From assembly GCA_032768795.1 (NCBI GenBank), contig CP136490.1:8370001-8434000 (forward strand): 64,000 nucleotides of DNA. The letters are read 5' to 3'. This DNA is from Tremella fuciformis (lineage: Eukaryota; Basidiomycota; Tremellomycetes; Tremellales; Tremellaceae). Below the pieces are notes generated by a model. That model saw only the letters and a list, made by a program, of their open reading frames with translations. It made no database searches and was not told the DNA's origin. A program made the position numbers and the translations under genes. Of this stretch, positions 26,307-47,981 are shown piece after piece; positions within the stretch are counted from its first letter, which is position 1; each line of letters begins with the position of its first letter.

Positions 26307-26316
26307 GACGTAGATA
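26307..26316. repeat. Target-site duplication of the MULE, left
   Basis: GACGTAGATA, repeated exactly at 47972-47981. Ten bases fits the 9-11 bp usual for MULE transposons. Confidence 0.7.
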
Positions 26317-27007
26317 GCCAAATCATATTGTCGCACGTCGGAGGGAATTTCTCGGAAGCTAAGTGGAGCCGATTCGGCCTCCCGCTAGTTACCGAGGATT
26401 TTTCGGACTTTTGCTGGATTTCTCGTACGTTGGCGGTTTTTTCTCGCACGTTAGGCAGTGATTTTCGCACCTTGGAGGTGGTTTTTGGGGTCTTAGCATT
26501 CAACAGCTGTTCTTCGTCCTCTGCGCAGGTGTATCCAATGTAAGTCTTCGTTCTCCATCCCGTTCGAAGGAAATATCTCAAATCGAGGTCAGTGTCGACT
26601 GGACATCGAGCGGTTGTGGCGCCACACCATAACGCCGATGTTATCACTCCCATCAGCAGGCACCATCAGGCGCGATCCGTGCTGATCCCGCGATCAGTGC
26701 GTGTATTGTCATCTCTCGTTTCAAGTATTTCCCGATGCTCTTGTCTGCCCGCACGATCCCCCGCACTTTGTGGGCATCCTCCCTCTCTCGGTACTCTTTG
26801 TTGCCATCACGCAGAGGAACGGGCATGAGGCCTCCTTGTTTTTGTCGGGCAGCACAGCGCCCGAGACTGAATACTGACTTTCCACCCGTACGCTGAGTCT
26901 CAGTCATAAGTGGAGCACGATGCCCGTATCCCCCATTCACATCATTTTCTTACCATTGCTCTCGTTCTAACCTTCAACTGCGAACAGCCGTTTGTGACAC
27001 CGACAAC
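26317..27007 (+). other. MULE left terminal and promoter region
   Basis: Starts GCCAAATCATATTGTCGCAC. From about 26395 to 26485 there are three or four degenerate copies of a T-rich unit ending in TCGTACGTTGG / TCGCACGTTAGG / TCGCACCTTGG. Similar units occur inverted near the other end. The rest, to ATG 27008, holds no supportable gene. Confidence 0.5.
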
Positions 27008-30000
27008 ATGACTGCCAGGCGCTTCCGACCTCGAGACCCCCCAACCGGTCAGGTTCCCGCGGGTCTCATCTCCAGGGGAACCCGTGCTCGAAAGCGTGGC
27101 CGACCTTCAATCCTTCCCAAACCGGTCAAGAAAGTCACAGTATCATCGTCTGGACCTCCGAACATCACCGTCTGCGATAATCCTGACTCTTCGGCTGCAA
27201 AGATCCCTTCTCAACCCGTGTCCGATGATGCTTCTGCACCCGCTCCCTCGCCCTCAGCTCCTCCTCTCACCATCTCTAGTCCTCCTGCACGTCTCACGGG
27301 ACAGGCGAACCCTTCTTCTGTAGATGTTTCTCCCGTTTCAGCTTCTCAAGAGGCAATGCAGACGCCTCCCAATAATCGTCATATTGGTGCGGCTTCAGAA
27401 ACTACGCCATCCACTGTCAATCAAGCTCAGTACGAGGAATGGGCCCAGCGATTCTTTGCGGCACCCGACATCCGCATCACCGGTGATCTTTCGACTCACA
27501 ATCCTCCGTCGGGGGTTCCGATTCACACGCACGACCACACCAAACCCTGTCGCACACCTGGAGTCCTTGTCATGTCGAGCAGTATGAGGTCCGGCAAATT
27601 GGAGATGACACATGAGCGAGGCTATGTCAGCCATGAACGGCCCGTTGCTGATCTTATTCGGTTCTTCGACGGATTGGTGAGCCATGCCTATCCATTATGC
27701 CCCTCGCTGAGCAGATAGGGCCATGATTATGTGTTGAAGAGACACGCGATAGCCTCTTCAGCTTCGATCGAGTGGCTAGATGGCCCCGGCCTCAATCCGA
27801 ACGACATACGGGCTCGCAGGCTCCAGATTCACACTTCTTCGCCTCTTCCTCAAGCTGCATTCGGCGAAACATCCGATTCTGGTCCGGACAATCCTATTTG
27901 GCGAGTCACGTGTGAGTGTAACGGCATGTGTAGGGCTCCTTCGCGCCACCAAAGCGGCCCGCCAGCGGTGGTCTCAGTCCGCGACTCTTTGAAGCAGGAG
28001 CTTTTCGAATACGGGAAGGCTCACTTCCTATCTAAGAAACAAGCAGCAAGCCTTCCTCCTACTTTGCGGACTCCTACACCGTCCGCTAACGAGATCGCCT
28101 CGTCCGTGTCGATTCGGGCCAAGTCAGCTACTCTGTCGAAGGGAAAAGCAAGGCAAATCGAGACCTCAGCTGCTGCAGGGCCAGGCCGTACACCTGTACC
28201 TGATACTCCTGGTCCGTCCGATTGGTTCGAGAATAATGAAAATCGCGAAGGCCGTTCGGACAATTCTGCGGATGATGACGATTGGCCAAGGTCATTGGAC
28301 GGAGAGCAAGGTAGCAATGATGACGATGATGCAATCGAAGACGAGGAGCTATGGTGGCAAGACGGCGGACCGGGTCATGCCGGCAACGAGGACATGGATG
28401 AGGACGACTTTGAGCCATTGAGCGGAAGCCGAGCAAAGAGCGGCTGTGGAGCTTTACTCTCCGTACGAATCTCTATCTGCACCGACCAACACTGACTCAG
28501 AAGGTCCTGATGACGAGGGAGCAATGCGCACGGCATGTATGCACCATCACAATGCTCAATGACGAAATACATCACCCAGTAGCCGATCGATCGAGACTCA
28601 AAGTCTCACCTTATCTGCGTCGAGTCTTACACGAGCTGTCCACCGGGTTCTCGATGACCGAAGCGAGATTGAAACTCTGTGCGTACCTTGACGAAGTCAC
28701 GAAGCTTGCGTTTCTCATTTTGGCAGGGTTCACGAGGACGGTCATGACCAAAGATCAGCATGCTCAATGGGTTCGCGCCCACTGTCCCCATCGAATTCCA
28801 TCAGGCAAGGTGTACCGTGTTGCTATGAAAACGGCTGGAAATGTCTACCAAATACATCAAAATCCTCTCGCTGCAATGGAGATCATAGCTGAGAAACACC
28901 CTGACAGTGTCATCGCGTGAGTCCGATCTCGTCATGCACAGTATCCGCTGATCAGGGAGGGAGAGGGGGCCCAAGTTTTTACTGAACGAGCGTCCCAATC
29001 GTTTGAAGAAGAAGAGAAAATCCAGAACCACCGATGGCGAACAGCGCATGGAATGCGTGATCGCTCCCCGACTGGCACGCGTCATGGCAATATTGCAAGT
29101 ATTCCGAATGGGCATGTACATGGATTCCTCGTATCGGAACAAGAACGCCTTCAGATGTCCCCTCACAATGCTGGTCACCTTGAATGAACAACATCACATG
29201 ATACCTCGTGGGTTATCTTGCCGCCTTTCGGGACACTTGAAACTGACCGACGCCAAGTTGCGGCCATGGTTTCCGCGCATTCCGATCAAATCGCCTACCA
29301 ATATCTACTTGAAGAGTTTGAACGCGGCTGCAGAGACGTTGCCGAACAGGTATTGTCAGGAGAATACGTCCCGAGCATTCCAGGCGTTACCGATGCCGAT
29401 CTCAAAGCGCAATGCAAGGTCTTCCTTGCAGACGGCCTCTGCCCACGATTTATGATGATCGATGCATCCGAAGCGGAGCGCAATGCCATACAGGAAGCCC
29501 TTCCAGGGACCGAAATCCGAGTTTGTCAGTTCCACATGATGCAAGCTTGCCGATCGCAGCTTCGCAAGTTTTTGTCAGACTATACGACGCGCACCCGCGA
29601 TCTCAAGATCCAAGAACTCCTGGACGCCATTCGACTCGCTCAGCGCTGTCCAGCGCAGGAGGAGTGGAATTCGTATCATGCAACTCTAGGTGAAACGGTT
29701 CGGGCATGCACTTCGGACGCCGTTTGGGAACGGCTCGACGCCTATCTACAGTCTACCTGGTTCTCGCAGAATTGGGCTTCCTGCTCTATCGATTACGGCA
29801 TGCCACCAGGTGTCACCAGAGACGGTCCGTGGTCCACGAACAACTACAGTGAAGCCTGCTTCAGAACATTTGATAGAGTCTTCTTGAGCTGTCGGGTGAA
29901 TCGGCGGTGAGCAACATCTTCACGGCTTTCGTGCGCTTTCGCTGATACTGTCTATCAGGCTCGATCGGCTCATGATCATTCTGATCGACGCATATTTCCC

Positions 30001-33000
30001 TTTCTATGAAGACCTCAGTCCTACCGCTCCTCGTCCCGATCCGAAACTTCAACAGCAACTCTTCTACGGTCTTCATCGTTGGGAGACGGACTGCATTCGA
30101 CCATGCGCTATAGAAAAGGTTGATGCTCGTAATCAGCGCCTCTTCGGGACAGACATTTTCGCGGTGTTTCCACAGAGACGACACACCGCGGCAAGCTCCG
30201 TTTGTCACTGCGGGAGGTCGCCGCAAGGACGAGAAGTGTGTACTTGCCCGTACTTCAAATCGACAGGCAAACGATGTCTTCATCTGTGGGCAATGGTGTC
30301 CTACGAACTGCTTGGGCCCGTTCTTGAATTCGAGGAGAATATGGCGGTTATTGAAGCCCATTTGAAAGACCTGAAAATCGGCGATGTCATCGACCACTCT
30401 ACCGGCAATCAAGAGGATGATCGAAAAGACTTTGCCGAATACTGGGGAAAGAACATCGAGAACGCAGAAGATTTGTCGGATCCGGACCCTCGTTTCTTCC
30501 CAGCGAGCAGGCAAGTGGCAGAGGACGTGACCTATGAGAGCTCTGATGAGGACGGCGATCAAGACGAAGTGGCCCTGATTGGTGGAGACAGGCCTTCTCC
30601 CATTATGCGGCGCCATCAGCCGATTCGCTCCCCACCCGTCAAAAGCAAAGTCCCTGATGTGTTCGATGTCGACTCCAACACACATGCGAAGCCGGGGAAA
30701 CCAGCTTTAATCCGTGCGCTGAATCCTAGTCGGGCAAAGGGCCCAGTGAAGGCCAAGGCCCCACAAATGGTCAGCACCGGCACTGCGAAGACCAATGTAG
30801 ATGCTCCGATTATCGGAAATACCCCAAATCTCCCTCAGAATGCCACGAACTCTTCGACAGGGGTTAGCGGACAGCTGGCCGTCACGGCCGCCCACGCCAT
30901 TATCCCGCGTGCGATTCCCAGCGTTCTCCGACTACCGGAAGAGGTCAGACTCCATGTTGACTCTTTCCTCAAACCGATTGGTATCAAGAATACCGGGACA
31001 GACTGCTATATTACGGCGCTCATACAGGTCCTCGCTCATCTCGATACTTGGCAGTCCGTCTTCAACAGCGTCAGAGATGAATACGGGCTTGCGGGTGGCG
31101 CGCCTCCCTGGGGAGGCGTGGAGTCTCCGCCAAATCCCGTGTATCGAATCCTGGATGAAGTGCAGAAGTCTCTGCTTGGGGACTCTGCCCTGGCCTTCCC
31201 CACTCTTCGGACTGTTCTGCATGGTGAGCAGCAGTCGGATCTCTTCTGTTTGTCGGCTGATCCGAGCAGAGGCCGGCCTGATTGACTCATCGTCATCTAT
31301 GGGAGATACTTCCGAGTTGTACTCGAAGCTGTTGACCTACCTGGACAACAGTCTAGGGTATATGGAACTCGAACAAAGGGTATTTGAGTATAATCTACGA
31401 TGCGGCTTTGTGCACCACAGACAGCACGAAGCGGACGGTGTGCAGCGATTTGAGAACCACCATCAGGCAGCAATCTTGGTTTACCCTCAACTGAATCCAA
31501 CTGCGTCTCTTTTGGCGATGGCCGAAGAAGCCATCTCATCTGACTGCATTGTGCCTTATCATTGCAGTCATACGCCGCCACATACGCCAACAGTGCTCCG
31601 AAACGCGGTCTCCTACTGTCATCTCTTTACGATTCAGGTGGTGTGGCCAGTACGAGTGGTGAAGGACGCCGACGGCTCATCTCGTACACTTCTTCACATT
31701 GAACGCACCTTTGCAATCCCCGAAAGAATACAGTATGGCACCGACCAGCGGCCCTGGCGGCTTAAAGGCGTCATCTGCAGGATCGGCGAGGATCCGAGCT
31801 CGGGACATTACATCGCCATCGTGTTGCACCAAGAGGTGTATTGGGTGATGGACGACCAACGGGTTCAGAGAGCAAGGGGCGTTGGTCGAGAGGCTTTCAA
31901 GGCCGGTCGATATCCTGTCCTGGTGTTTTACGAGCGGGGAGACCAAGGCTATATCCCCGTGGGCTCGAGTCACTCCCTGTGGTCCTCACCGCTGATCATT
32001 CAGATACCAGAAGCCATGCCGGCTACGCAAAATGCCCCAGTCACGGACCCGTTCGGCCTGGAGCAAGAATGGATGAACGACTTATGGGCTACCGTCGACT
32101 CATCGCAGGATGCCCCACAAATTCTGGACGCAACAGTGCCCTCTGGGGTCGCCGACGAAGCGAGTCATAGTAGTCAACCACCGACACAGCCTCCCGGAGA
32201 TCAACCAGATACCGAGACGTCTCCTTTCTTGTCCACTGAGGTCGACATCGCCCTGCAAGGCCTTGGACCCACTGCCGGGTCCGCTGTGGCGTCCTCTGGC
32301 GTGGACGCAGTTTGGCAATCGCAGAAGACTCCGAAAGTGACTTTCGTGGTCCCGGATGGGATTCAAAAACACCCATCCTCTTCCCGAGCGACATCGCGCA
32401 TGCTGGTGCCCACACCGCCGTTACTAGCGTACCACCCATTGGCAACGCCGCAGCCTGGCGATCCGTCTTCGGTCTCTAATGGGGTTGCCTCTCAATTTGA
32501 TGTGTCCGGCTTCTCGATCATAAGCCCTTTCCCCACTCCTAGCCCGACGAGGCAATCGCCGCTCGACAGGCCGTATCAATACTCGTTTGGTGTCGCTTTC
32601 AAGCACGGACAGGGTCATCCTCATGGTGGACCCAGACTTAGCGTCTCTGCTCCCCGCCTATCATCAGACAGTATGGGCAATTCATTCCTGAGCCCTTCGA
32701 CGACACAATCAAGAGTCAGTGGCGATCAAGCGAGGCAAGCTGTGATCCGATATCGGACCCAAATTGTGTGGGAAGTCCCCGAATCGAGACCTCGCGGAAG
32801 TCTTATCGTTCGAATGATTGAGGATGGAGCTAAGGTCGCGGCCTTGTCTGAGAGTCCGATGGCCATGCGGAGGAAATTGTTAGACTCTGCTCAAATCGAG
32901 CTCCGCCGAGCGATGTTTGACCGTCAAGACGTCTTTTCTCGGGGACTGCATTGCGGTTTAGACCACACATCGGTCACCAGCGACGATCTGGAACTATTCC

Positions 33001-33286
33001 GAGACCATTCGTCCTGGTGGTCGAACTCGCTCATCGACGCCTTATGCCTCACAGCAGCTCGAAGACTTGATCGTCTCGATCGCACTGCCACTGTCGCGGC
33101 ACCTAATGACGCTGACCGGCCTCTCAGGTCACCGTCAACCTCAATCGGGAATGATATAGAGGTTCAATACGTAAGGGACTTGCTGGAGTGGATTCAAACG
33201 GATGAGGACGGTATAAAGCCTCGGCTCCAACCGCTGGAAAGCGATCCCTCGCTGTACACGTCTCTACCGTGGCCAGCTCTGGGTCC
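27008..33286 (+). pseudogene. MULE transposase + SWIM + USP-like gene, 5' part (cut by gypsy)
   Basis: Starts MTARRFRPRDPPTGQ and is joined through short introns. A disordered and acidic N-terminal part precedes the transposase. The catalytic core is MDSSYRNKNAFRCPLTMLVT (Asp 29123-29125), FMMIDASEAERNAI (Asp 29461-29463), CQFH (29524-29535) and WSTNNYSEACFR (Glu 29851-29853), a MULE D-D-E arrangement. A SWIM finger CTCPYFKSTGKRCLHLW sits near 30240-30290. After a linker, GIKNTGTDCYITALIQVLAH resembles the USP/C19 Cys box (Cys 31004-31006); after an intron, GEDPSSGHYIAIV (His 31806-31808) and YWVMDDQ resemble its His box. A disordered stretch leads to SSWWSNSLIDALCLTAARRL, like the first helix of Ulp1/C48 proteases. 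The gypsy insertion cuts the frame after 33291. The single-polypeptide reading is inferred from frame continuity across introns. Confidence 0.75.
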
Positions 33287-33291
33287 AGACA
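33287..33291. repeat. Target-site duplication of the gypsy element, left
   Basis: AGACA, repeated at 44594-44598. Confidence 0.9.
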
Positions 33292-33863
33292 TGTCATGAA
33301 TCAACACATAGGAGAAATAGTATTAGAATCAGGATCCAAGAAATAGAGTAAAGTCCGGAACTTAAGGGTAACATTCGTAGAAGCTGCACAGAAGTTGCTC
33401 AGCACCTGCACAGCATCTGCTTAGAACCTGCGTAGCACTTACTTAGAACTTACTTAGCACTTGCTTAGAACCTGCTCAGCACCTGCGTAGCACCTGCTCA
33501 GCACCATTCGTAGAATCTGCCCAGCGCTCTGGGTGGCAAATTCATAGTTCTTAGCAATCTGGTGAAAGGGATATAAGCAGGCCTGTTTGCCGCTGAAGAC
33601 CTTTCCCCAGTTATGGATCAAAAGTCATTCCCTTGTCTCTCTTCCTAGTCCCAGTCCCCCAGTCCTCCAGACCACGTCCAGTGCAACCCTGCGCCATCAT
33701 TCTGTTACACAGAGAGGCAAGACAGCAGACAAGCCAGAGACTAGTCATTCCAGTTCCAGTCCAGTTTGCCACTCACAGTAGTGCGCTTCCAGTCAAGTCC
33801 TGCCTAGCTTTAGCTCCATCCGTCCGACAATCCGACCACCTCCCGTCCACGACAAGTACGACA
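33292..33863 (+). repeat. Gypsy 5' LTR
   Basis: TGTCATG...TACGACA, 572 bp. From about 33382 to 33510 it holds a degenerate tandem array of roughly 10-11 bp units such as TCAGCACCTGC and TTAGAACCTGC. A TATA-like box (GATATAAGCAGG) lies near 33570. Confidence 0.92.
33571..33577 (+). promoter_or_regulatory. TATA-like box in the gypsy LTR
   Basis: ATATAAG within GGGATATAAGCAGG, downstream of the tandem array; probable start region for the genomic transcript. The same site is in the 3' LTR near 44301. Confidence 0.5.
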
Positions 33864-34038
33864 GTATCCATAACCAAACCCCTTGTCCTCGCTTGTCTTG
33901 CTCCTAGTCATAGCCAACCCTAGTCGCTCATTACACACACTCGTTTACACCACACTCGTTTACAATCTACCAAGGTACTCTTCCTTTTCAGCTTAGCTAA
34001 TCAAGTAGAACCCAAAGACGACCACACCCCGTATCATC

Positions 34039-35007
34039 ATGTCCGACACCGTTACCAATACCCAAGATGAGGTCTTGCAGGAGATGCAGGCGCGCATCAT
34101 CCAGCTTGAAACCATGCTACAGACCCAGACCATCAATGGTCCACGAGCCAAGGAACCCAAGGTCACCAATCCACCGCCTTTCAGTGGCCGTAAGGATGAG
34201 GCCTATGAGTTCATACTCAAGTGTGACATGGTCTTCAATGTTCAGCCTCAGACCTATGCCAGTGACAAGGCAAGGATTGCCTTTGTCACCAACTTGCTCA
34301 AGGGAGAAGCCTATCAATGGGTAATGCCTTACCTCCTTATGGACCATGACGCACAGCCAGCATGGGTCCAAACCTGGATCAGCTTCAAGGAGGAGTTCAA
34401 AAAGGTTTATGGCGACTCCAACATCATTGAAACATCCCGTCGCAAGATCCAGTCCCTCCGCCAGACCGGTTCCGCCACCACCTATCTCACGGAATTCCGT
34501 TGCCACTCAGCCTATCTGCATTGGGGTGATGAGGCTTTACGTCATGCCTTCTTTGATGGACTGAAGGAAGACGTGAAGGACAAGCTCCTCACTCCCAACA
34601 AGTTTAAGGACTTCAATGCCCTGGCAAACGATGCCATCCAGTGGGATGATCTTCTCTTTCAGCGCAGGAGAGGTTATTCCAATATCCGCCATCCCGCAGC
34701 CCGAGTTACCACCCATGTCACCAATCAAGTCACCCGTCCTCAGTTCCAGCGCACTCCAGTCACCACCACAACCAGCTCTTTCACTCCAACCCCAATGGAG
34801 ATTGATGCTGTCCGTCCACGCTTCACACCTCTCACCGCTCAGGAGAAGCAATACCGCTACGACAACAAGTTGTGCCTTTACTGTGGCAAGCCTGGCCATA
34901 CAGCTTTCGCTTGTCCCAACCGGCCAGCTATCAGGGCCAACAAGGTGAACGCCACAACTGCCACTACCAATCCCATCAAGTCAAAAAACACCAAGCCCCT
35001 GGCCTAG
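34039..35007 (+). CDS. Gypsy Gag (capsid, CCHC zinc knuckle)
   Basis: 322 residues from MSDTVTNTQDEVLQEM. It has a retrotransposon capsid-type region (PPPFSGRKDEAYEFILKCDM, AYQWVMPYLL, FKEEFKKVYGD, LRQTGSATTYLTEFR) and a nucleic-acid-binding knuckle C-LY-C-GKPG-H-TAFA-C. It stops at TAG 35005-35007. pol is in the -1 frame and overlaps the 3' end. The heptamer AAAAAAC, positioned in the gag frame as A AAA AAC, lies 15 nt before the stop. Confidence 0.92.
   Translation: MSDTVTNTQDEVLQEMQARIIQLETMLQTQTINGPRAKEPKVTNPPPFSGRKDEAYEFILKCDMVFNVQPQTYASDKARIAFVTNLLKGEAYQWVMPYLLMDHDAQPAWVQTWISFKEEFKKVYGDSNIIETSRRKIQSLRQTGSATTYLTEFRCHSAYLHWGDEALRHAFFDGLKEDVKDKLLTPNKFKDFNALANDAIQWDDLLFQRRRGYSNIRHPAARVTTHVTNQVTRPQFQRTPVTTTTSSFTPTPMEIDAVRPRFTPLTAQEKQYRYDNKLCLYCGKPGHTAFACPNRPAIRANKVNATTATTNPIKSKNTKPLA
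34983..34989 (+). promoter_or_regulatory. -1 ribosomal frameshift heptamer, gag to pol
   Basis: AAAAAAC in gag phase (TCA AAA AAC). Slippage by -1 enters the pol frame at CAC CAA GCC CCT, which is open for the next 3.9 kb. The site is of the X XXY YYZ type. I have not tested for a downstream stem or pseudoknot. Confidence 0.7.
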
Positions 35008-38000
35008 TCATGCCCCAAGCCATGGGGCTCTGCTTAGGGCAAACATCCAGTCAACAACAACACGGTCTCCGTATTTCAGCCACAACGATCATGTCAATCA
35101 TTCCAGTCAACCATGAGCCACACCTGTGCTTGCCAATCACACTCAGCTATGGCAGTCATCAGTATGACACCTATGCTATGATTGACTCAGGTGCCACAGG
35201 CAACTTTATCAACTCCGACTTCCTTCCTACCACCAGCATATCCCAGGTCCCCAAGGACACACCCTTAGAAATTCAAGTCATTGATGGACGACCAATCAAA
35301 TCCGGCGCCATTACACATCACACCAATCCAGTCCAACTCTCAGCCCTTGTTCATGAGGAAACAATATCCCTTGACATCACGTCCCTTGGCGACTACCCAG
35401 TTATCCTTGGCCTTCCATGGCTATCCCAGCACAATCCCAGTATTGATTGGACCCGTCAGTCCATCAATTTCTCCTCCGCACACTGTCTGGCACAGTGCAT
35501 CAAGCCTGACAAGCTTGAGGAGGTAGATTCCAGTCCCAGTATATCAAGTTCCGGCAACCTGTCTGGAAAGACATCCTCAGGTACACCATCCCAGCAACCG
35601 AGTCTCACCAAGTCAAGCCACTCCAATCCAAGTCCAAGTCATGGCATGCCAAGCACGACCGCTTCATGCACATCCAGCCAATCCAGCAAACCCAGCCTAC
35701 CAAGATCAAATCCAGTCAACATTGCCCTAGTCAGCGCAGCAGCATTCCACCTTGCCCTCAAGTCAGCCAGCATCTATGGTGTGACCACATCCAGCCAAGT
35801 ATCCGGTCTCATTGATCCTCCACCAGCAGAGGACAATGACGAGTCAACAATCCCCGACATCACTACCCTCAGGTCTCAAGTCCCAGCCGAGTTCCATGCC
35901 TACCTTGATGTCTTCAACAAATCCAACTCCGACAAACTCCCAGAACACGGAAGATATGACCATTCCATTGACTTGGAAGGGGACGCTCAGCCCAAGTTTG
36001 GTCCAATATATTCCCTTTCTGAAGTAGAGTTGAAAGCTTTGGATGAGTATTTGAAGGAGAACCTCAAGAAAGGATTTATACGCCCAAGTTCAAGCCCAGC
36101 AGGATCACCAATCCTATTTGTCAAGAAAAGCGACGGATCATTGCGTCTCTGTGTGGATTACAGAGAACTCAACAAAATCACCAGGAAAAATCGCTATCCG
36201 CTCCCGCTTATCCAAGAATCATTGGACCGCCTCAGAGAAGCGCATTGGTTTACAAAAATCGACTTGCGTGCGGCCTACAACCTAGTCAGAATCAAGCCTG
36301 GTGACGAGTGGAAAACAGCTTTCCGCACCCGCTACGGCCTTTTCGAATACCTAGTCATGCCATTTGGCCTAACAAACGCCCCGGCATCATTCCAGCACCT
36401 CATAAACGACACTCTCAGGGATTACCTTGACATCTTTGTCATTGTGTACCTTGACGACATCCTTATCTTCAGTAAAACCCGGGAAGATCACATCAGCCAT
36501 GTTCAACAAGTCTTGCAACGCCTACGCCAGCATCATCTTTGGGCAAAAGCAGAGAAGTGCACCTTCTTCAAACATGAAGTGGATTTCCTTGGCTATCTTG
36601 TCTCTGACAAGGGAGTCAGGATGGATCCAAAGAAAGTTGAAGCAGTGACTTCTTGGCCACCACCAAAGAATGTTCATGATACCCAAGTATTCCTTGGCTT
36701 TGCAAACTTCTACCGACGATTCATCAAAGCCTACTCCAAAGTCACAGCACCCCTCACCAAACTTTTACGCAAAGGAGAAAAGTTCATATGGGGAGACAAA
36801 GAATCAAAGGCATTCAATACCCTTAAGGAGGCTTTCACCAGTGCTCCTATCCTTCAGCATTTCCAGCCCGGTACACCCATTGTCATTGAGACAGACGCAT
36901 CCGACTTTGCCATTGCAGGCGTCCTGTCACACTCAGTCAACAATCAGCTCCACCCAGTTGCCTACTATTCCAGGAAGCTCCAGCCAGCGGAGCTCAACTA
37001 TGAAATCTACGACAAAGAAATGCTTGCAGTAGTGGAAGCATTTAAGCATTGGCGACAATATTTGGAAGGAGCAAAGGACATCAGTGTCTACACCGACCAT
37101 AAGAATCTGGAATATTTCACCACCTCCAAAGTGCTCAACAGACGACAAGCACGGTGGGCAGAAATCCTAGCCAACTTTGATTTCAAAATTTATTACCGAC
37201 CTGGTACCAAGATGGGCAAACCCGATGCCCTGACCAGGAGGTCAGACCTTCAAGGGGGGAGTAGAGCTGCAGATGCACCTCCCCACACACTTCTCAAGCC
37301 TAGCCAGTTTGTACTTGGAGCTTTACGCCAGCCCAGGTCACAAAATCCCAAGCCAAGTCCAACACAATCCAGTCTCATCCAACAAATCCGGCAATTCCAG
37401 TCTGAGGATTGCACCCTCCAGCAACTGCGACCGTATTTAGAGGACCCCAGCCTAGTTCAACCTCCAGAGATCCAGCAACAAATCCAGTCATTCAGCATCC
37501 ACGACAACATCATCTACTATGCCAACCTAGCGTACATCCCAGACAATCATCAGCTCAAGCTCAACATTCTTCATCAAGTCCACAATGCGCCAACTGCAGG
37601 TCACTTTGGTCAGGCCAAGACCTATGACTTAGCAGCCCGACAGTATTATTTTCCAGGCCTACGCAGCTTTGTCAACACATATGTCAATGGTTGTCACACC
37701 TGCGCACGGAACAAAGCACCTCGACACAAGCCCTATGGACCACTCCAGCCATTGCCAATCCCGTCACGTCCCTGGCAGTCCATTTCAATGGATGCCATTG
37801 TCAAGCTTCCAATGTCTGATGGTTACGACTCCATCATGGTCTTTGTAGACCGCTTCAGCAAACAAGCACACTTTGTGCCATTCACAGAAAAGGGTTTTGA
37901 TTCACCCAATCTTGCAACAATGTTCCGGCAAAACATCATGCGACTTCACGGTATACCTCAAGACATAGTATCGGACCGTGGCCCAGTATTCAACTCTCAG

Positions 38001-38957
38001 TTTTGGCGAGCCTTTGTCAAAGGCTTAGGCATCACACCCAACTTCAGTACAGCATTTCATCCCCAATCCGATGGTCAAACCGAGAGAGTCAACCAAGTAT
38101 TAGAGGCATATTTACGGAATTATTGCAATCACAATCAGGACAATTGGACATCACTCTTAGACCTTGCAGAGTTCAGCTACAACAACGCTGTACACACATC
38201 AACACACCAGTCACCATTTGAAGCCAACTACGGTTACCATCCAACATCACCTTCAACACTCCCAGCTCCAGCCTTGGTCCCAGCAGCACAGTCCTATCTG
38301 GAGGATCTGCAATCAGTACAAGAGGGCCTCAAGGAGAATCTCAGCCGCTCCCAGCAATCTCAAGCCCGTTTTTACAACCGGAAAATCAAGGAAATCATGA
38401 GTTCAGACGACATTCCCAAGTTCAAAGTAGGAGATCAGGTGTTCCTCAACCGGAAGAACATCACCTCTCTTCGCCCATCACTCAAGTTAGACCAGCGCAT
38501 GCTTGGTCCCTACACCATCATTGGCACTACATCATCACCACTTGCTTTCAAGCTTGACCTACCGCCAACTCTGCCAATTCACCCAGTATTCCATGTCAAT
38601 CTCTTGGAACCAGTACGCCTTGGACATCCCGGCCAGCAGCAAGATCCCCCTCCCAAGATAGAAATCCAGGGAGAAGAGGAATATATTGTGGAAAGGATTC
38701 TCAATTCACGCATCAGTGAAGATGGTGGATACGATTACCTTGTCCATTGGAAGGATTACTCCTCCGCACATGACTCATGGGAACCATGGGAGGAGGTCTA
38801 CCAAACAACGGCTTACAAGCACTTCAGGCGGCAACATTTACACAATAAGACTCAGCACTTCCCGCCACACTCAGCTCACCACAACAAAACAGATGCTCCA
38901 GCAGCACACACAAGTCAGACACGTACATCAGCCAGGCTCAGAGGACTTCGCCTTTAG
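34990..38957 (+). CDS. Gypsy Pol (PR-RT-RNaseH-IN-chromodomain)
   Basis: Open in the -1 frame relative to gag from 34872; functional sequence would begin after the frameshift at 34989. In order: protease YAMIDSGATGNFINSDF; reverse transcriptase KKGFIRPSSSPAGSPILFVK, MPFGLTNAPASFQHLIN and the YLDD active site; RNase H IVIETDASDFAIAGVLSH; integrase zinc region with CHTCARNKAP, then SMDAIVKLPM, VSDRGPVFNSQFW and DGQTERVNQVLEAYLR (D-D-E). At the C-terminus EEYIVERILNSRISEDGGYD, YLVHWKDYSSAHDSWEPWEE is a chromodomain, which in chromoviruses steers integration toward marked chromatin. The stop is TAG 38955-38957. No break is visible. Confidence 0.93.
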
Positions 38958-38965
38958 AGGGGGAG
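38956..38965 (+). other. Gypsy polypurine tract
   Basis: AGAGGGGGAG, four bases before the 3' LTR and overlapping the pol stop. Confidence 0.75.
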
Positions 38966-38969
38966 CTCC

Positions 38970-39059
38970 TGTCATGAATCAACACATAGGAGAAATAGTA
39001 TTAGAATCAGGATCCAAGAAATAGAGTAAAGTCCGGAACTTAAGGGTAACATTCGTAGA
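38970..39059 (+). repeat. Gypsy 3' LTR, first piece
   Basis: The first 90 bp of the LTR, ending GTAGA, which is the target site of the copia insertion. Same as 33292-33381. Confidence 0.92.
39055..39059. repeat. Target-site duplication of the copia element, left
   Basis: GTAGA, repeated at 44107-44111. The uninterrupted 5' LTR has it once, at 33377-33381, which proves the site. Confidence 0.92.
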
Positions 39060-39378
39060 CGACGGAATCTTAGCTCTGAGGCAATGGGATTCCGGTCACC
39101 TGTTGCCCGCTCAGCACTTGCTATGAGTGATGCATTCGGACTTACCTGTTGCCCGCTCAGCACTTGCTATGAGTGATGAGGAGGGCAACAGGCGGCGGCA
39201 TTCTACAAGGTCGTCGAGGGTGTCGGCGTTATATGCGGAGTTATCGTTGTGGCAGCTTCCCCTGCCTCGTCGAGGGATGAACCTCGTCGAGGCACAACCT
39301 CGTCGAGGATGTGTGTGCCTCGACGAGGCTACTCGAGGCTGAGTCAAGCTCATGTGAGCGTACTACCTATTTCCGTTG
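39060..39378 (-). repeat. Copia 3' LTR
   Basis: Reads CGACGG...CCGTTG on the plus strand, so CAACGG...CCGTCG in element sense; not the usual TG...CA. Internal features: a 35-bp direct repeat (39098-39132 and 39144-39178) and several copies of the palindrome CCTCGTCGAGG. Confidence 0.92.
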
Positions 39379-39387
39379 CCTCCCCTC
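39379..39387 (-). other. Copia polypurine tract
   Basis: GAGGGGAGG on the minus strand, directly against the 3' LTR. Confidence 0.75.
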
Positions 39388-39397
39388 GCGAGCATGT

Positions 39398-42300
39398 CTA
39401 TTGACTCTGCTGCTCTGCTTCTCCTTGTCTTCCCAAGCCCAGTAGCTGCCGAAGCTGTCTCGTCTTCTCGGCCGAAAGGTTCTTGGTCAGGATGTCGGCT
39501 CGGTTGCTGTCCGTTGGTGTGTATTTGAGCTCAAGCAGTCCACCAGCTTGATGCTCTCGTATCCACTGGGCTCGCATGTCGAATGCTTTGTTCAGTTTGA
39601 ACCCGTGTTGATGTTTGGCCAGTTGAATGGCTCCATTGTTGTCGTTGTAGATGGGCACTGCTCCATCTATACCTAGGTCGAGGTCGCTCAATAGTTGCCT
39701 GAGCCATATTGCCTCTTTGCCCGCTTCTGTTGATGCTAGGAGTTCGGCCTGTGTCGTCGAGAGTGCGACTGTTGGTTGTCGCCTGCTTTTCCATGACACA
39801 ATGCCCCCGTATGTATTGAAGACGTAGCCGGTTGTAGATCGACGTGTGTCGAGACATCCACCCCAGTCTGCGTCTGCCCAGCCTAGCAGTGCTCTTCTCC
39901 CTGCATGTGCGTCAAAGGTGAGTGCGAGATCTGATGTTCCTCGCAGGTACCTCAACAGGTGCTTTGCGGCCCTCCAGTGTGTGAGAGACCATTTGCTGAT
40001 GAAGCGACAGAGCAGTGATGCTGCGTAGGCGATGTCGGGTCGGGTGATCGTGGCAATATAGAGGATTGACCCGGCGAGTGCTGGAAATGGTTTATCTCGA
40101 GCCTCGTCGACCTCCTTTGGCGTAGCCTCGACGAGCTTTGCGTCTGGCAAGATTGTCTTGCAGGCTTTGCCGGGTTCACCGAAGCGTTGAAGAACTGCCT
40201 CGATGTAGTGCTCTTGTGACAGGTACATCTTCTTGTTTGGCCTGTCTCGGTAGATGTTGATACCGAGGAAGTAAGAAACCGGTCCTTGGTCCTTGCACTC
40301 GAGTTCCTTGTTGATCTTCCGTTTGATCTCGTCGATTGTTGATCGATCGTTGCCAGCTATGAGCATGTCGTCAACGTGGACTGAGATCATGCACCGCTTG
40401 TGTCCTTGTCGCAGCGAGTAGATGCATGGATCCGCTAGGGTCGGTTTGAAGCCTAGCTCCCGTAGGAACTCGTCGAGGCGCTTGTTGAACAAGTGCGGTG
40501 ATTGTCGGAGACCGTATAGTGATTTCCGGAGGTGCAGGACGTGTCCGGCGGCAATGTCGCTGCCTTCTGGTGGCTCGATGAAGATGTCCTTGTCGATGTT
40601 GGCCTTGAGGAATGCTCCAATGATGTCTATTTGGTCGCATTCCCAGTCGAGGTAGTTGACGATGGAGAGGAATAGGCGGAATGATGACTTGTGGGTGACC
40701 GAAGCAAAGAGTTCGTCGAAATCTCGTCCTGAGACCTGTTGAAATCCTCTCACGACGAATCTGGCCTTGTGCTGACTCGCTTTGCCCGTGTCCCCGTCGA
40801 TCTTGCGAGTGAATACCCATTTGCCTGTAAGAGTACGGTGATTCTCCTTGGGGACCATCTCCCACACTCCGTACTTCTCCATCTTTCCCATCTCCTCGTC
40901 CATGGCCGATTTCCAATCCTCCCAGTCTGCGGCTCGACGAGCTTCGGCGTAAGACTGGGGGTTGTTGAGTGACTGGGCTGATAACGCGTGCTCTATGGCT
41001 ACTCGGTTATAGTCCATATCGATGTCGTGCAGAGGGTGATGACTAGGTTCTTGGCCTGCTAGTCTCCCCGACCGTCTTGGCTCATCTGCATTGGCCGCTG
41101 TGGGCTCGTTTAGTCGACGATCGGGATCCTCTGGTCCGTCGTCGGGATTCGGTTCCGGGCTCGGTGCATCCTCTCGAATGTACTCATTGGCCCAGCCTCT
41201 CCCTTGCCTGGGTACGGCTTGGGGAGGTATGTCGTCCATCTCTTCCCCTTGTTCCTCTTCTTCTGGTTCCTCCCCTGCCTCGACTATCTCGTTCAGCTCG
41301 ATGGATGTATCGTCATCCTCGTCGAGGCTCGTCGATGGTCGTCGAGGTCCAGGTTGAGGCGGCTCCAGGATCTGTCGTGGTTCATCTGAACTGGGCGTTG
41401 TCTTCCTGCCCGTGATGAATGTGACGTCTCGGCTTGCAATGACCCTGTTGGATTGGGTCAGCACCTTGTAGCCCCAGCTCCCTTCTGTGTACCCCAGCAG
41501 TCGACCGCATTGTCCCCGCTCGTCGAGCTTCGATGCGGGGTTCACAACTCGATAGATGCAGTGATGGCCGAATGGCTGCATCCCCTGGTACTGCAGGTCG
41601 ATATCGTGGTCTGGTCGGAAGAGCGTTATCGGGATTTTCGCGTGGGAGCCTGGCAGCCTGTTCCGAGTGAAGACTACATACCGCAGTGCATCTACCCAGA
41701 ACTGGGTTGGCAAGTTCGAGTCCGCAAGACATGTCCGGATGTCATTGAGGATGGTAAGATGGACGCGCTCGACTCGACTGTTTTGGTTGTGTGCGTCGGT
41801 CGGCGTGAGGGTGTGCTCAATTCCCTTGCTTTTGCACCAGTGGCTGAATTCCTTGCTCGTGAATTCGCCTCCTTGGTCTGAGCGGATGGTCTTGACTGTT
41901 CGATCAAGCTGATTCTCTGCCAACTTGATATAGTCTTGCAGTGCTTCGGCTGCATCCGACTTCTTCTTGAGTGGTATGGCCTGCACGTATTTGCTGTGGT
42001 CGTCATAGCAGGTGAGGAAGTATTGGAAGCCTTCTCTCGACTGGACGGTTGCTGGTCCCCATAGATCGACTGATACCTCGACGAGGGGCTTGCTGGCTCG
42101 ACGAGGGTTAGGTAGAGATGCCGAGCGCGTTGCCTTCCCTTTCAGGCAATCCATGCATTCGACTCTCCGAAATGACCCTGTCCACTTTGCGCCTAGCTTC
42201 CCCTCTTTCCCGAGCTCCCACACCTTCCTCATGTTCGAGTGACCTAGGCGTTTGTGCCAGGTGAGGAGGCGAGTGTCTTCGGCTTCAGTGTTTTCTATTG

Positions 42301-43690
42301 CCTGAAGTGCTCGGTGAATGCGCGAGGTGGTGCGTACCGGTGTGTCGTCTACAACCCATAGGTTGCCAAGTTTCTTTCCCCGGAGGATGACCTTCCCTTT
42401 CTCGACCAATGTAGCCGAGTCCTTCGAGAAGCGCCAGTGTGTCCCTGTGTACGGACCGAGGCGCTGTGTTGAGAGGAGGTTGTGCGAGAATGATGGAACG
42501 TAGAGGGCGTTGTTGTACCATACGTTGTTGAAGGTGAGGCGGCCGGAGTGTGTAGCTTCGACAATCGATCCGTCTCCAATTTGGATCTTGACGGCCTTGT
42601 CGAGTTTGGTGAGATGTGAGAGAAGGTGCTTGTCCTTGATGAATGGACTGGTGGCACCGCTGTCGATGATGATGGAGGTGGATGGGAGGTTGTCGTTGGC
42701 GTGTAGTGCAATCTCCGTCGCATAATATCCTTCCTCCTTTGTCTCCCTCGACGAGCCTCTCTTGCTCTCACTCGATGAGTCATCCTCTGACTCCATCTGC
42801 TCTCTTGCCTTCTTCGCTTGTCCTCCCTGCTTCCTTCCCTTGGCTGCTTCCCTGGCCGACCTTTGCTCCTGGATGTGCTTCGGCACTCCAATCACTTTCC
42901 AGCACTCATCTGTGGAGTGCCTCCCCTGATCCGGATGGTGGATGCATCTCTTGCTTGCCGGTTTCTGCAGGGATTTGCTGAGCATCCCCATCTCGTTTAC
43001 GCTCTCGCCCTTTTGTTGACGTCTGCGATGTTCATCGGCGACCCTATCGATAACCTCGTCGAGGTGGATCTTGTTCGACGAGGTCCCTGAGTAGAAGGTC
43101 GATGCGAGGAGGCCGTATGAGGACGGTAGGCGACGGATGGCGGCGTATGCGCCAATCTGGTTGGCAAATTGCTCAAGGGTGAGCTTGGAAGTGATGGCGG
43201 AGGAGGTGATTTCGGCCAGTTGCGACCGGATAGCTGTGAGATGAGGTTCGGGGTCCTCATTCTCTGGGATGGTCTCGCCAAATATCGATGACCATAATTC
43301 GGCTAGGCGAGATCCGTTGTCGGCCCCATATGTGGTGACCAGATGATCGTAGAGCCCCTTCGGTTGAGGATTCTCGAAGTCGATCAGGTTCGAGGGAAGC
43401 TTGTTTTGGACAGTCTCTGTCAGACTGCCATAGAGAGTGGAGAGGGCGGTGGACTGCTCCTTCTCATGCTCGTATAGAGCAACTGCTCTCTTTGATGTCT
43501 CGGCTGCTGTCGCCGGACTTGACACTGGATATCGAGCCTCGACGAGTGCCCGAATCGCTGACGCGTCCTTGGTGATGTGGGGTACGAGACCGGCGGATCC
43601 GAGGACGACTCGAATCTCGCGCACCCACTGGGCGTAGTTGTCGCGCCCGTTGAGCTTGCGCTCCTCTTTCACCGTCTGCACAGATGGCAT
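39398..43690 (-). CDS. Copia Gag-Pol polyprotein (intact)
   Basis: 1430 residues from MPSVQTVKEERKLNG. In order: Gag-like region, including EQFANQIGAYAAIRRLPSSY and a CIHHPDQGRHSTDEC knuckle-like motif; aspartic protease STSIIIDSGATSPFI; pre-integrase HKRLGHSNMRKVWEL with a CMDC pair; integrase SVDLWGP, RSDQGGEFTS and NSRVERVHLT (D-D-E); reverse transcriptase WVFTRKIDGDTG, LYGLRQSPHLFN and HVDDML (the HVDD form of the YVDD box); RNase H WADADWGGCLDTRRSTTGYV and ALSTTQAEL. The order IN before RT is the copia order. All parts share one frame with no stop, unlike the gypsy element, which needs a frameshift. It can be expected to be active. Confidence 0.94.
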   Translation of the reverse strand: MPSVQTVKEERKLNGRDNYAQWVREIRVVLGSAGLVPHITKDASAIRALVEARYPVSSPATAAETSKRAVALYEHEKEQSTALSTLYGSLTETVQNKLPSNLIDFENPQPKGLYDHLVTTYGADNGSRLAELWSSIFGETIPENEDPEPHLTAIRSQLAEITSSAITSKLTLEQFANQIGAYAAIRRLPSSYGLLASTFYSGTSSNKIHLDEVIDRVADEHRRRQQKGESVNEMGMLSKSLQKPASKRCIHHPDQGRHSTDECWKVIGVPKHIQEQRSAREAAKGRKQGGQAKKAREQMESEDDSSSESKRGSSRETKEEGYYATEIALHANDNLPSTSIIIDSGATSPFIKDKHLLSHLTKLDKAVKIQIGDGSIVEATHSGRLTFNNVWYNNALYVPSFSHNLLSTQRLGPYTGTHWRFSKDSATLVEKGKVILRGKKLGNLWVVDDTPVRTTSRIHRALQAIENTEAEDTRLLTWHKRLGHSNMRKVWELGKEGKLGAKWTGSFRRVECMDCLKGKATRSASLPNPRRASKPLVEVSVDLWGPATVQSREGFQYFLTCYDDHSKYVQAIPLKKKSDAAEALQDYIKLAENQLDRTVKTIRSDQGGEFTSKEFSHWCKSKGIEHTLTPTDAHNQNSRVERVHLTILNDIRTCLADSNLPTQFWVDALRYVVFTRNRLPGSHAKIPITLFRPDHDIDLQYQGMQPFGHHCIYRVVNPASKLDERGQCGRLLGYTEGSWGYKVLTQSNRVIASRDVTFITGRKTTPSSDEPRQILEPPQPGPRRPSTSLDEDDDTSIELNEIVEAGEEPEEEEQGEEMDDIPPQAVPRQGRGWANEYIREDAPSPEPNPDDGPEDPDRRLNEPTAANADEPRRSGRLAGQEPSHHPLHDIDMDYNRVAIEHALSAQSLNNPQSYAEARRAADWEDWKSAMDEEMGKMEKYGVWEMVPKENHRTLTGKWVFTRKIDGDTGKASQHKARFVVRGFQQVSGRDFDELFASVTHKSSFRLFLSIVNYLDWECDQIDIIGAFLKANIDKDIFIEPPEGSDIAAGHVLHLRKSLYGLRQSPHLFNKRLDEFLRELGFKPTLADPCIYSLRQGHKRCMISVHVDDMLIAGNDRSTIDEIKRKINKELECKDQGPVSYFLGINIYRDRPNKKMYLSQEHYIEAVLQRFGEPGKACKTILPDAKLVEATPKEVDEARDKPFPALAGSILYIATITRPDIAYAASLLCRFISKWSLTHWRAAKHLLRYLRGTSDLALTFDAHAGRRALLGWADADWGGCLDTRRSTTGYVFNTYGGIVSWKSRRQPTVALSTTQAELLASTEAGKEAIWLRQLLSDLDLGIDGAVPIYNDNNGAIQLAKHQHGFKLNKAFDMRAQWIREHQAGGLLELKYTPTDSNRADILTKNLSAEKTRQLRQLLGLGRQGEAEQQSQ

Positions 43691-43767
43691 GACGGAGGAC
43701 CACTTCGAGGCTGGCGGTGCGTAGGCAAGGTCGACGAGTTTGTTGACGCGTTCTATCTACCGCGACT

Positions 43768-43787
43768 TGTCGAACGAGACGTTACCA
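43768..43787 (-). other. Copia primer binding site (candidate)
   Basis: Directly inside the 5' LTR on the minus strand, beginning TGGTAACGTCTCG; the leading TGG fits pairing with a tRNA 3' CCA. I cannot name the tRNA. Confidence 0.5.
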
Positions 43788-44106
43788 CGACGGAATCTTA
43801 GCTCTGAGGCAATGGGATTCCGGTCACCTGTTGCCCGCTCAGCACTTGCTATGAGTGATGCATTCGGACTTACCTGTTGCCCGCTCAGCACTTGCTATGA
43901 GTGATGAGGAGGGCAACAGGCGGCGGCATTCTACAAGGTCGTCGAGGGTGTCGGCGTTATATGCGGAGTTATCGTTGTGGCAGCTTCCCCTGCCTCGTCG
44001 AGGGATGAACCTCGTCGAGGCACAACCTCGTCGAGGATGTGTGTGCCTCGACGAGGCTACTCGAGGCTGAGTCAAGCTCATGTGAGCGTACTACCTATTT
44101 CCGTTG
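43788..44106 (-). repeat. Copia 5' LTR
   Basis: 319 bp, the same as 39060-39378 as far as I can compare, including the 35-bp repeat. Confidence 0.92.
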
Positions 44107-44593
44107 GTAGAAGCTGCACAGAAGTTGCTCAGCACCTGCACAGCATCTGCTTAGAACCTGCGTAGCACTTACTTAGAACTTACTTAGCACTTGCTTAGAA
44201 CCTGCTCAGCACCTGCGTAGCACCTGCTCAGCACCATTCGTAGAATCTGCCCAGCGCTCTGGGTGGCAAATTCATAGTTCTTAGCAATCTGGTGAAAGGG
44301 ATATAAGCAGGCCTGTTTGCCGCTGAAGACCTTTCCCCAGTTATGGATCAAAAGTCATTCCCTTGTCTCTCTTCCTAGTCCCAGTCCCCCAGTCCTCCAG
44401 ACCACGTCCAGTGCAACCCTGCGCCATCATTCTGTTACACAGAGAGGCAAGACAGCAGACAAGCCAGAGACTAGTCATTCCAGTTCCAGTCCAGTTTGCC
44501 ACTCACAGTAGTGCGCTTCCAGTCAAGTCCTGCCTAGCTTTAGCTCCATCCGTCCGACAATCCGACCACCTCCCGTCCACGACAAGTACGACA
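44107..44593 (+). repeat. Gypsy 3' LTR, second piece
   Basis: Starts with the right copy of GTAGA (44107-44111) and continues the LTR to TACGACA. Matches 33377-33863. Confidence 0.92.
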
Positions 44594-45249
44594 AGACAGC
44601 TCATGGCGCAAAAGGATCACGATCTCTGTCATCAGCGTCTACTTCAACCTGCACTTCATTTGCGTTGCGATATTCGGCCCAGCACGATTGGTGATTCCCT
44701 TCGATGGTGAAGGTGGCGCGTATGATTGCGAAGAGCTGAAAGAGGTTCGTGAAACGGCGAGCATGGGTTGATGCTGATCCACAGCGATGGCCGCGACTTC
44801 TGGAAGATCGGATGGCCTACGAGGCGCACCACGGTTGGGTGAATGCCCAGGATAACCAGGAGTGGATTTTCGCGCCCAACACCCCGGTAAGCCGTGGCGC
44901 CTGGAGGTCGCCAGATTGAATTTGACTGACGCTCAAGCTCGTTCGGGATCAACTTCGCTGGATTGTGCAACCCGACAGAAACAATTGCGGTCCACTGGCG
45001 GTAGCTGCAGCAATTTTGATGCTGCAACATCTTCGACCGTGCTGCTGGAACTTGGGTCTGGACGAAGGATCGATTCAGCCGTCGGTATTGAATCGAACAC
45101 AGTTGCTCCGTGACTCTTTGCTGATAATGGTCTTGGAAGAGGCCAGGGAGTACGCCAAGGCGGACGGCCGGGAGCAGCGGAAAATACCACGGGCAGAATC
45201 TCTGTGGGAGTGGCTGGCAGAGTGGAAGGGGACTATGGATATCATTTAA
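44594..45249 (+). pseudogene. MULE gene, 3' part: Ulp1/C48-like protease module
   Basis: Continues the MULE frame interrupted at 33291. Entering in phase after AGACA, it reads ISVISVYFNLHFICVAIFGP (His 44652-44654) and VIPFDGEGGAY (candidate Asp). Two short introns follow. LRWIVQPDRNNCGPLAVAAA has Gln at 44968-44970 six residues before Cys 44986-44988 and then Gly, the arrangement of Ulp1/C48 peptidases. The frame stops at TAA 45247-45249 after LWEWLAEWKGTMDII. A neighbouring frame stays open with protein-like sequence (YHLTWSNYTLYEIATSLAHV, FKTCIHVFHAGR), so a one-base change in the GGGG run near 45230 may have cut off the tail. An OTU-like reading of the Cys region and tail is a weaker alternative. 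Confidence 0.6.
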
Positions 45250-47530: not shown

Positions 47531-47971
47531 GATGAAGGTTGCTGGAGTAGCGATGAGTACGATCGAATGAGTACAGCTTAGTCTTTTTGATGGTTCTGAT
47601 GAGGGCACGGAGACGGAGAACGCATTGTTCGCTGACTCTATGGTTCGCTGATCGGTGGACATTGTCCCGCTCGGAGGACAGAGAAGCGAACATTCTTCTG
47701 GTTGAAATGGATTGCAGACCGATTCGATACATGCATCAAGTCACGAGGCAACTCAGAATGGCGATTCAGTACAAGGTGGACGTGTCCAGTCCAGATCGGG
47801 CGCTCGATTGAAGTTAGGGATCTAAGTTGCTATAGACCCAAGGTGCGAGAAAACACAAACGTGCAGGAAAACAGCAAGTTACGGGATTACCCGAAAGAGA
47901 ATGCAGAGAAAGAAAATCGGGAAAATTGGCATGCGAGATTTCTAAGCTGAGTTACAATAAATTACGCATGC
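47531..47971 (-). other. MULE right terminal region
   Basis: Upstream of the minus-strand gene. Read on the minus strand, it ends the element with GCATGCGTAATTTATTGT at the outer edge. It holds the inverted subterminal words CTGCACGTTTGTGTTTTCTC and GCACCTTGGG (about 47845-47880). Confidence 0.5.
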
Positions 47972-47981
47972 GACGTAGATA
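47972..47981. repeat. Target-site duplication of the MULE, right
   Basis: GACGTAGATA, same as 26307-26316. Confidence 0.7.

Follow-up and report, generated by a model that had tools for sequence, protein, structure and literature searches.

We analysed a window of 64,000 nt of the Tremella fuciformis genome (contig C1:8370001-8434000; coordinates are positions in this window unless a contig is named). The gene at 27008-45249 is predicted to encode, in this order, a Mutator-like element (MULE) transposase, a SWIM-type zinc finger, a ubiquitin-specific protease (USP, peptidase family C19) and an Ulp1/SENP-like peptidase (family C48). A long terminal repeat (LTR) retrotransposon interrupts the C48 module. 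The parts of the gene are the following.

27008..33291, plus strand: MULE-SWIM-USP gene, 5' part as far as the insertion (splice-aware model)
27008-27676, 27719-28462, 28501-28916, 28960-29207, 29258-29906, 29959-31223, 31270-33291, plus strand: modelled exons of the 5' part (splice-aware model)
28960..29906, plus strand: MULE transposase core (DDE residues read by eye in MDSS, MMIDAS and NNYSE; PF10551 match at 29437-29544; tree)
30239..30301, plus strand: SWIM-type zinc finger (PF04434, E 0.0021, under cut-off)
30975..31935, plus strand: USP (C19) domain (Cys box NTGTDCY, His box SGHYIAIV..WVMDDQ)
33000..33291, plus strand: C48 module, N-terminal part (WWSNSLIDALCL), severed by the insertion (matches the WW stretch of paralogs)
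44595..45249, plus strand: C48 module, C-terminal part, HF..FDG and then Q-x5-CG (three-frame reading; corresponds to paralogs)

The splice-aware model runs from the ATG at 27008 to 33290 in seven exons, giving 2004 residues with no stop, and adjoins the LTR start at 33292. Past the insertion, the reading frames resume with HFICVAIFGPARLVIPFDG, followed by GWVNAQDNQEWIFAPNT and QPDRNNCGPLAVAAA in the next frame. QPDRNNCGPLA is also read there, and introns were placed by eye between these pieces, near 44726-44784 and 44887-44937. The exon/intron models of the elements were made with a home-made script that runs beyond real stop codons, and were trimmed at the natural stop. When raw open reading frames (ORFs) were scanned apart, none of the four window matches (MULE, SWIM and the two UCH halves) was at the Pfam cut-off. 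PF10551 has E 1.5e-5, under cut-off, in a single ORF, and reaches 27.8 bits against a cut-off of 27.6 when the frame neighbours are included. Two PF00443 pieces lie within the USP domain (30977-31075 and 31740-31877). The Cys-box piece has E 0.0041 and the His-box piece E 6.7e-5, both under cut-off with the exons scanned apart.

Relatives were searched in the whole genome (28.1 Mb, 11 contigs). Two protein queries gave at least 15 and at least 17 matches, which we grouped into 17 loci, counting C5:562-575k once. Six divergent lineages, named here C1/C4/C8, C11, C4b, C5b, C6 and G3, were read further. All six contain the MULE region, a SWIM-type motif, the USP boxes and the C48 motifs in the same order on a single strand. 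Motifs corresponding to the DDE residues of the window gene were listed in the relatives; in the G3 model, the exon around the first catalytic Asp is probably misframed. The SWIM motif was read by eye in some lineages; Pfam finds it at E<=1, under cut-off, in three paralog ORFs (L035, L027 and L028) and misses it in L026. PF10551 matches in paralogs (1.0e-5, 1.2e-4 and 0.0035) are all under cut-off. The C1/C4 lineage has a single open frame of 672 residues that extends from QHDPVEF, a USP box, across the USP His box and the entire C48 domain; UCH is above cut-off in this frame (E 4.4e-7). Single exons also match above cut-off in C5b (UCH, 7.3e-12) and C11 (UCH_1, 1.7e-7). These paralog matches indicate that the UCH pieces of the window gene are not due to chance. 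More generally, an explanation by chance motifs was rejected, as profiles, structure and conservation agree. An NCBIfam scan gave weak IS256-type transposase matches only.

Other MULE families in this genome seem to have no similar USP domain nearby, as far as the USP query shows, since this query matched none of the 20 strongest MULE places. Twenty MULE matches in the genome are stronger (E 1.9e-23 to 1.5e-18, several equal in score) and presumably represent other MULE families. In two lineages (ORFs L018, L055 and L016 of the C4b and C5b regions), the long linker between USP and C48 carries GATA-like Cys fingers, one in C5b (PF00320, E 0.0008, under cut-off) and several in C4b (by eye).

Homolog searches, the first of which used an alignment of three rows with the C6 row ending after the USP, yielded 14 proteins. 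The named ones are hypothetical or uncharacterized, except P0010 ("USP domain-containing") and P0011 ("SWIM-type domain-containing"). P0001 (Tremellales sp. Uapishka_1, 2064 residues), P0002 (Kwoniella mangroviensis, 1236 residues) and P0010 (Naematelia encephala, 2302 residues) have MULE and UCH above cut-off together with the C48 His and Gln..Cys-Gly motifs; Pfam C48 was unmatched at the E-values used (1 and 0.5). These are single proteins from independent gene predictions, with the MULE, UCH and C48 motifs in the order of the window gene. P0011 (K. newhampshirensis) has the C48 motifs, with MULE and UCH under cut-off. Of two Tremella mesenterica proteins, P0013 has the C48 motifs and MULE at E 0.13, and P0012 has MULE above cut-off and stops after the C48 His. 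Altogether, PF10551 is above cut-off in P0001, P0002, P0006, P0010 and P0012 and not in P0011 and P0013. P0006 and P0007 are partial proteins.

Two other proteins stand apart. P0009 has UCH, but its N-terminal region is unrelated, and it was rejected as a family member. P0014, from the polypore Earliella scabrosa, resembles the window family over the transposase part (23-28% identity to the family) and has SWIM above cut-off and a Pfam C48 match (E 1.1e-15). It differs by a PHD finger, just under cut-off, and by UCH, which like MULE was unmatched at E<=0.5. Upstream of its Pfam C48, a second Ulp1-type His..Gln..Cys-Gly-like stretch can be read by eye.

The window copy and C6 are joined in the MULE tree (100/99) and in the USP tree (97/93), as are G3 and Tremella (100/99 and 98/98). 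Because the same joins appear in both trees, the MULE and USP modules seem to have moved as a unit. The C48 tree, from which the window copy was left out, is mostly unresolved. The grouping of G3 with Tremella is absent from it, C4 and G3 come together with weak support (flagged as a long-branch join), and it contains no supported conflict.

A preliminary description of this sequence had placed the transposase triad, the SWIM finger, the USP boxes and the C48 set in order along one plus-strand gene broken by a gypsy insertion. All of these motifs are present in the window, and an LTR element, of gypsy type by eye, does begin at 33292. The 672-residue frame shared by USP and C48, the constant order in six lineages and the single predicted proteins of three other species support the reading that the MULE, USP and C48 parts are joined in one gene. 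Copies free of the gypsy insertion, which the description had suggested looking for in related genomes, were found as full-length copies in the same genome and as single proteins in other species. It had also proposed profile searches and structure prediction. MULE (with the frame neighbours) and UCH (in paralogs) came out above cut-off, whereas SWIM stayed under it and C48 was weak; similarity to C19 was found by profile and model, and to C48 by a low-confidence model.

The USP module is strongly predicted. A profile of six USP regions matched USP46, USP12 and USP7 over the whole domain, with a best E of 5.8e-16 (USP46). It retrieved 96 distinct sequences at E<=10, and the 60 of those listed are all USPs. 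Once spliced, the six USP regions all match PF00443 at E<=10 (best 6.7e-16). With the structure model of the Kwoniella relative (predicted local distance difference test, pLDDT, 57.4), the 50 matches listed of 759 are USP structures only (best E 1.4e-11). Residues were read in 19 sequences: the window gene, our six lineages and 12 homologs (all 14 except P0009 and P0014, which lie outside the family). The USP catalytic Cys is present in 19/19, in 17 by pattern and in two found separately (P0006, where it lies one residue farther from the Asn, and P0007). The His is present in all 15 sequences that reach that far.

In the C48 module, the His-Asp-Gln-Cys set is invariant in the 11 aligned sequences and is also found in the window pieces. 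The C48 fold is recovered in a predicted model of low confidence, whose 24 best matches in the PDB are SUMO or NEDD8 proteases. Assignment of the putative peptidase to C48 rests on these invariant residues and on this model, the sequence profiles being weak. A homolog search with the Kwoniella C48 region alone found only itself, and a Pfam C48 search of the whole genome listed no transposon C48 domain. The latter search showed two places ca 200 bases apart (C1:8288984-8289474), presumably two exons of a host Ulp1 gene.

The window element has probable ends on both sides of the gene.

26307..26316: left target-site duplication, probable, GACGTAGATA (10-bp repeat at both inferred ends)
26317..26480, plus strand: left terminal inverted repeat, probable, degenerate (local alignment to the right end)
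47830..47971, plus strand: right terminal inverted repeat, probable (local alignment to the left end)
47972..47981: right target-site duplication, probable, GACGTAGATA (10-bp repeat)

The terminal inverted repeats (TIRs) align with a score of 97.5, to be compared with a mean of 68.6 (standard deviation 7.0, maximum 95.2) in 500 shuffles. The 10-bp duplication is weak when taken alone because 0.75 shared 10-mers are expected across the wide regions compared; it is helped by the GC termini, as in the delimited copies.

Two paralog lineages show the MULE hallmarks, namely TIRs and a target-site duplication within the 8-11 bp range of MULEs. In the C1/C4 lineage, the C1 copy (9923 bp) and the C4 copy (9356 bp) show one difference in 7756 bases and two in 1605. 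Their TIRs are ca 114 bp long with 86% identity, and their target duplications, read from the flanks, are CGACGCTATC and TTCAGCACG. A third copy, on C8, ends inside C48. In the G lineage, the C3 and C5 copies show six mismatches and two gaps over 10.3 kb. Their inverted repeats are 64 bp long (91% identity), and their duplications, also read from the flanks, are CCTCCAGAG and CTCCACTTC. All four delimited copies have GC at their ends and 9-10 bp duplications, of four different sequences. Near-identical full-length pairs, TIRs and differing duplications argue for recent transposition of these two lineages. For C11, C4b and C6, plain BLAST gave no TIR match, and for C5b a 16-bp match taken as chance, so these four elements were not delimited.

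A second gene lies downstream of the MULE gene, in convergent orientation.

45368..47697, minus strand: convergent companion gene (modelled exons 47091-47697 and 45368-47042; start uncertain, as the model adds two short upstream exons)

By eye, it combines a Cys-rich N-terminal module (SRGP.C ... C...C.PAF.Y) with a coiled-coil. A Pfam scan of the window companion ORF gave nothing convincing. The window and C6 companions share 32% identity over 630 residues (E 8.8e-73), and similar companions stand at the same place in C6, C5b, G3 and C4 (five elements modelled, including that of the window). In C11 and C4b, this place is occupied by a long ORF on the minus strand, compared by position only. 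Other MULEs, such as Mutyl, are also known to have a second ORF in convergent orientation (passage in PMC6446971).

The architecture of the family thus comprises GC-ended TIRs flanked by 9-10 bp duplications, a DDE/SWIM transposase, a USP, a linker, an Ulp1/SENP-like peptidase and a convergent coiled-coil gene. The domain order is found in one gene, most catalytic residues are conserved across lineages and two of the lineages have been mobile recently.

Several known systems resemble this arrangement in part. MULEs with Ulp1 or OTU, in hydra, lancelet and plants (MuDR-6_HM carries OTU), likewise combine a MULE with a ubiquitin/SUMO-type cysteine peptidase; unlike for the window family, neither a USP nor a peptidase pair is mentioned for them in the relevant passages of PMC2836005 and PMC6446971. 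The preliminary description had drawn a parallel with the Ulp1 domain of plant Kaonashi MULEs. The parallel holds insofar as Ulp1 is found on a MULE in both cases. However, the plant domain is encoded by KIU, a gene of VANC type that belongs to the three-gene set of Vandal MULEs, which are non-TIR elements, according to the part of PMC13317346 dealing with them. It is therefore on a separate gene, whereas the window family has TIRs and a predicted Ulp1-like domain fused to the transposase. Ginger1 carries a C-terminal Ulp1 or OTU in the same protein as the transposase, as here, but its transposase is Gypsy-integrase-like and each element in the table of PMC2836005 has at most one peptidase. 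A fusion of C19 with a transposase, as in the window family, exists in Trichomonas XP_001314237.1 (transposase_11 + peptidase C19); the transposase family is different and Ulp1 is not mentioned in that part of PMC2836005. MULEs carrying Ulp1 or OTU have thus been published, as has a C19 domain joined to a different transposase. A search for MULE, Ulp1, transposase and "ubiquitin-specific protease" together found none in the open full text of PubMed Central (subscription papers and Repbase were outside the search). In agreement with the preliminary description, the pair of USP and Ulp1 in one MULE is new as far as searched.

We give about an even chance to the following reading: a two-gene MULE family whose transposase tethers active ubiquitin/SUMO isopeptidases that act in cis at the transpososome. 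Both peptidases would be active and kept at the transpososome by the transposase. They would clear ubiquitin and SUMO (or some similar modifier) from the transposase itself, and the same modifiers from host chromatin or repair proteins at excision and insertion sites. Deconjugation would let the protein escape ubiquitin/SUMO-dependent turnover or silencing, and strand repair could proceed. Carrying both peptidases on the transposase would couple their activity in cis with transposition. Somewhat more tentatively, and short of an even chance, the family may be an old tremellomycete MULE lineage whose transposase carries a double apparatus for editing ubiquitin and SUMO, one that the element needs in order to transpose; it would supply the DNA break with a deubiquitinase and a deSUMOylase of its own. 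A participation of ubiquitin and SUMO pathways in transposition was suggested by the authors of the Ginger study (passage in PMC2836005). With both kinds of peptidase on one protein, kept in divergent lineages and recently mobile, such a role becomes testable. The analysis also outlines a clear fungal family, most named members of which are now listed as hypothetical or uncharacterized.

A series of observations weighs against this reading. In the USP box, 12 of 15 sequences have Asp at the first acidic position, which we take to be the triad residue per USP7 numbering; two (P0006 and P0007) have Asn there and one (the C4 lineage) has Ser. At the following position, 13 of the 15 have Asp. UCH was unmatched at E<=0.5 in both T. 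mesenterica proteins, though both boxes were found by pattern. Confidence is low for both structure models (pLDDT 57.4 for the USP, 61.0 for C48). Pfam C48 matched one of the six own-genome regions (E 0.0012), missing five, and among relatives one of seven proteins (E 0.21), then none of four at E<=0.5, with P0001, P0002 and P0010 missed. PDB profile matches for C48 are weak (E 0.22-0.85) and partly to an unrelated phosphatase. When C48 was compared by hhalign with the polypore C48 that Pfam verifies, E was 0.032 but the probability was 1.6%; the polypore profile was one sequence entered twice, and the catalytic residues aligned although the score was low. Finally, the 567 bp by which the C1 copy exceeds the C4 copy lie inside a modelled exon, so the C1 gene may be broken.

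Alternatively, the peptidases could act in trans, not on the transpososome but as a VANC/KIU-like anti-silencing factor on host chromatin, for example on histone H2B ubiquitin or sumoylated repressors. Host factors are among the known targets of USP and SENP enzymes. In plants, KIU-carrying Vandals induce hypomethylation of related elements (part of PMC13317346). Here, however, the domains are fused to the transposase, in contrast to the separate Ulp1 gene in plants, and we consider action in trans unlikely. Self-processing, in which one peptidase would split the long protein into a transposase and a cofactor, much as viral polyproteins are processed, would fit the great length of the protein, the poorly conserved linkers and the membership of C48 in the clan of the adenovirus protease, which appears among the structure matches. 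Yet a reading by eye of 12 sequences, for Gly-Gly-type sites only, showed no (L/I/V/Q)xGG site repeated at a common place in the linkers, and Pfam scans listed no ubiquitin-like fold up to the E-values used, which makes this explanation rather improbable. MULEs often acquire host gene fragments (passage in PMC6446971), and the Ser of the C4 lineage could suggest that the peptidase domains are captured passengers or binding modules with no catalytic role. We find little to recommend this idea, as the USP Cys/His and the C48 His/Asp/Gln/Cys are kept at ca 20-33% identity over the domains, unexpectedly for neutral passengers. That separate neighbouring genes were mistakenly read together is hardly credible: the exon joins are indeed modelled only, with introns from a home-made script, but a paralog has USP and C48 in one open frame, single proteins are predicted in at least three further species and the order is constant in six lineages.

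The window copy itself is broken by nested insertions.

33292..44594, plus strand: LTR retrotransposon, gypsy-type by eye, inserted in the C48 module (right end by eye)
39060..44107, minus strand: copia-type element (by eye), inside the 3' LTR of the gypsy-type element (LTRs)

Both types were assigned by eye, not from a profile search. The LTR copies of the gypsy-type element are identical over the 90/90 and 300/300 bp compared, and a long ORF spans 34806-38957. In the copia-type element, the LTRs are identical over 318 bp and the minus-strand ORF at 39398-43756 encodes 1452 residues. Because the LTR pairs are identical where compared, both insertions look young. At C5:562-575k, LTR-element sequence likewise seems to interrupt a close paralog of the window element, between its transposase and C48 parts.

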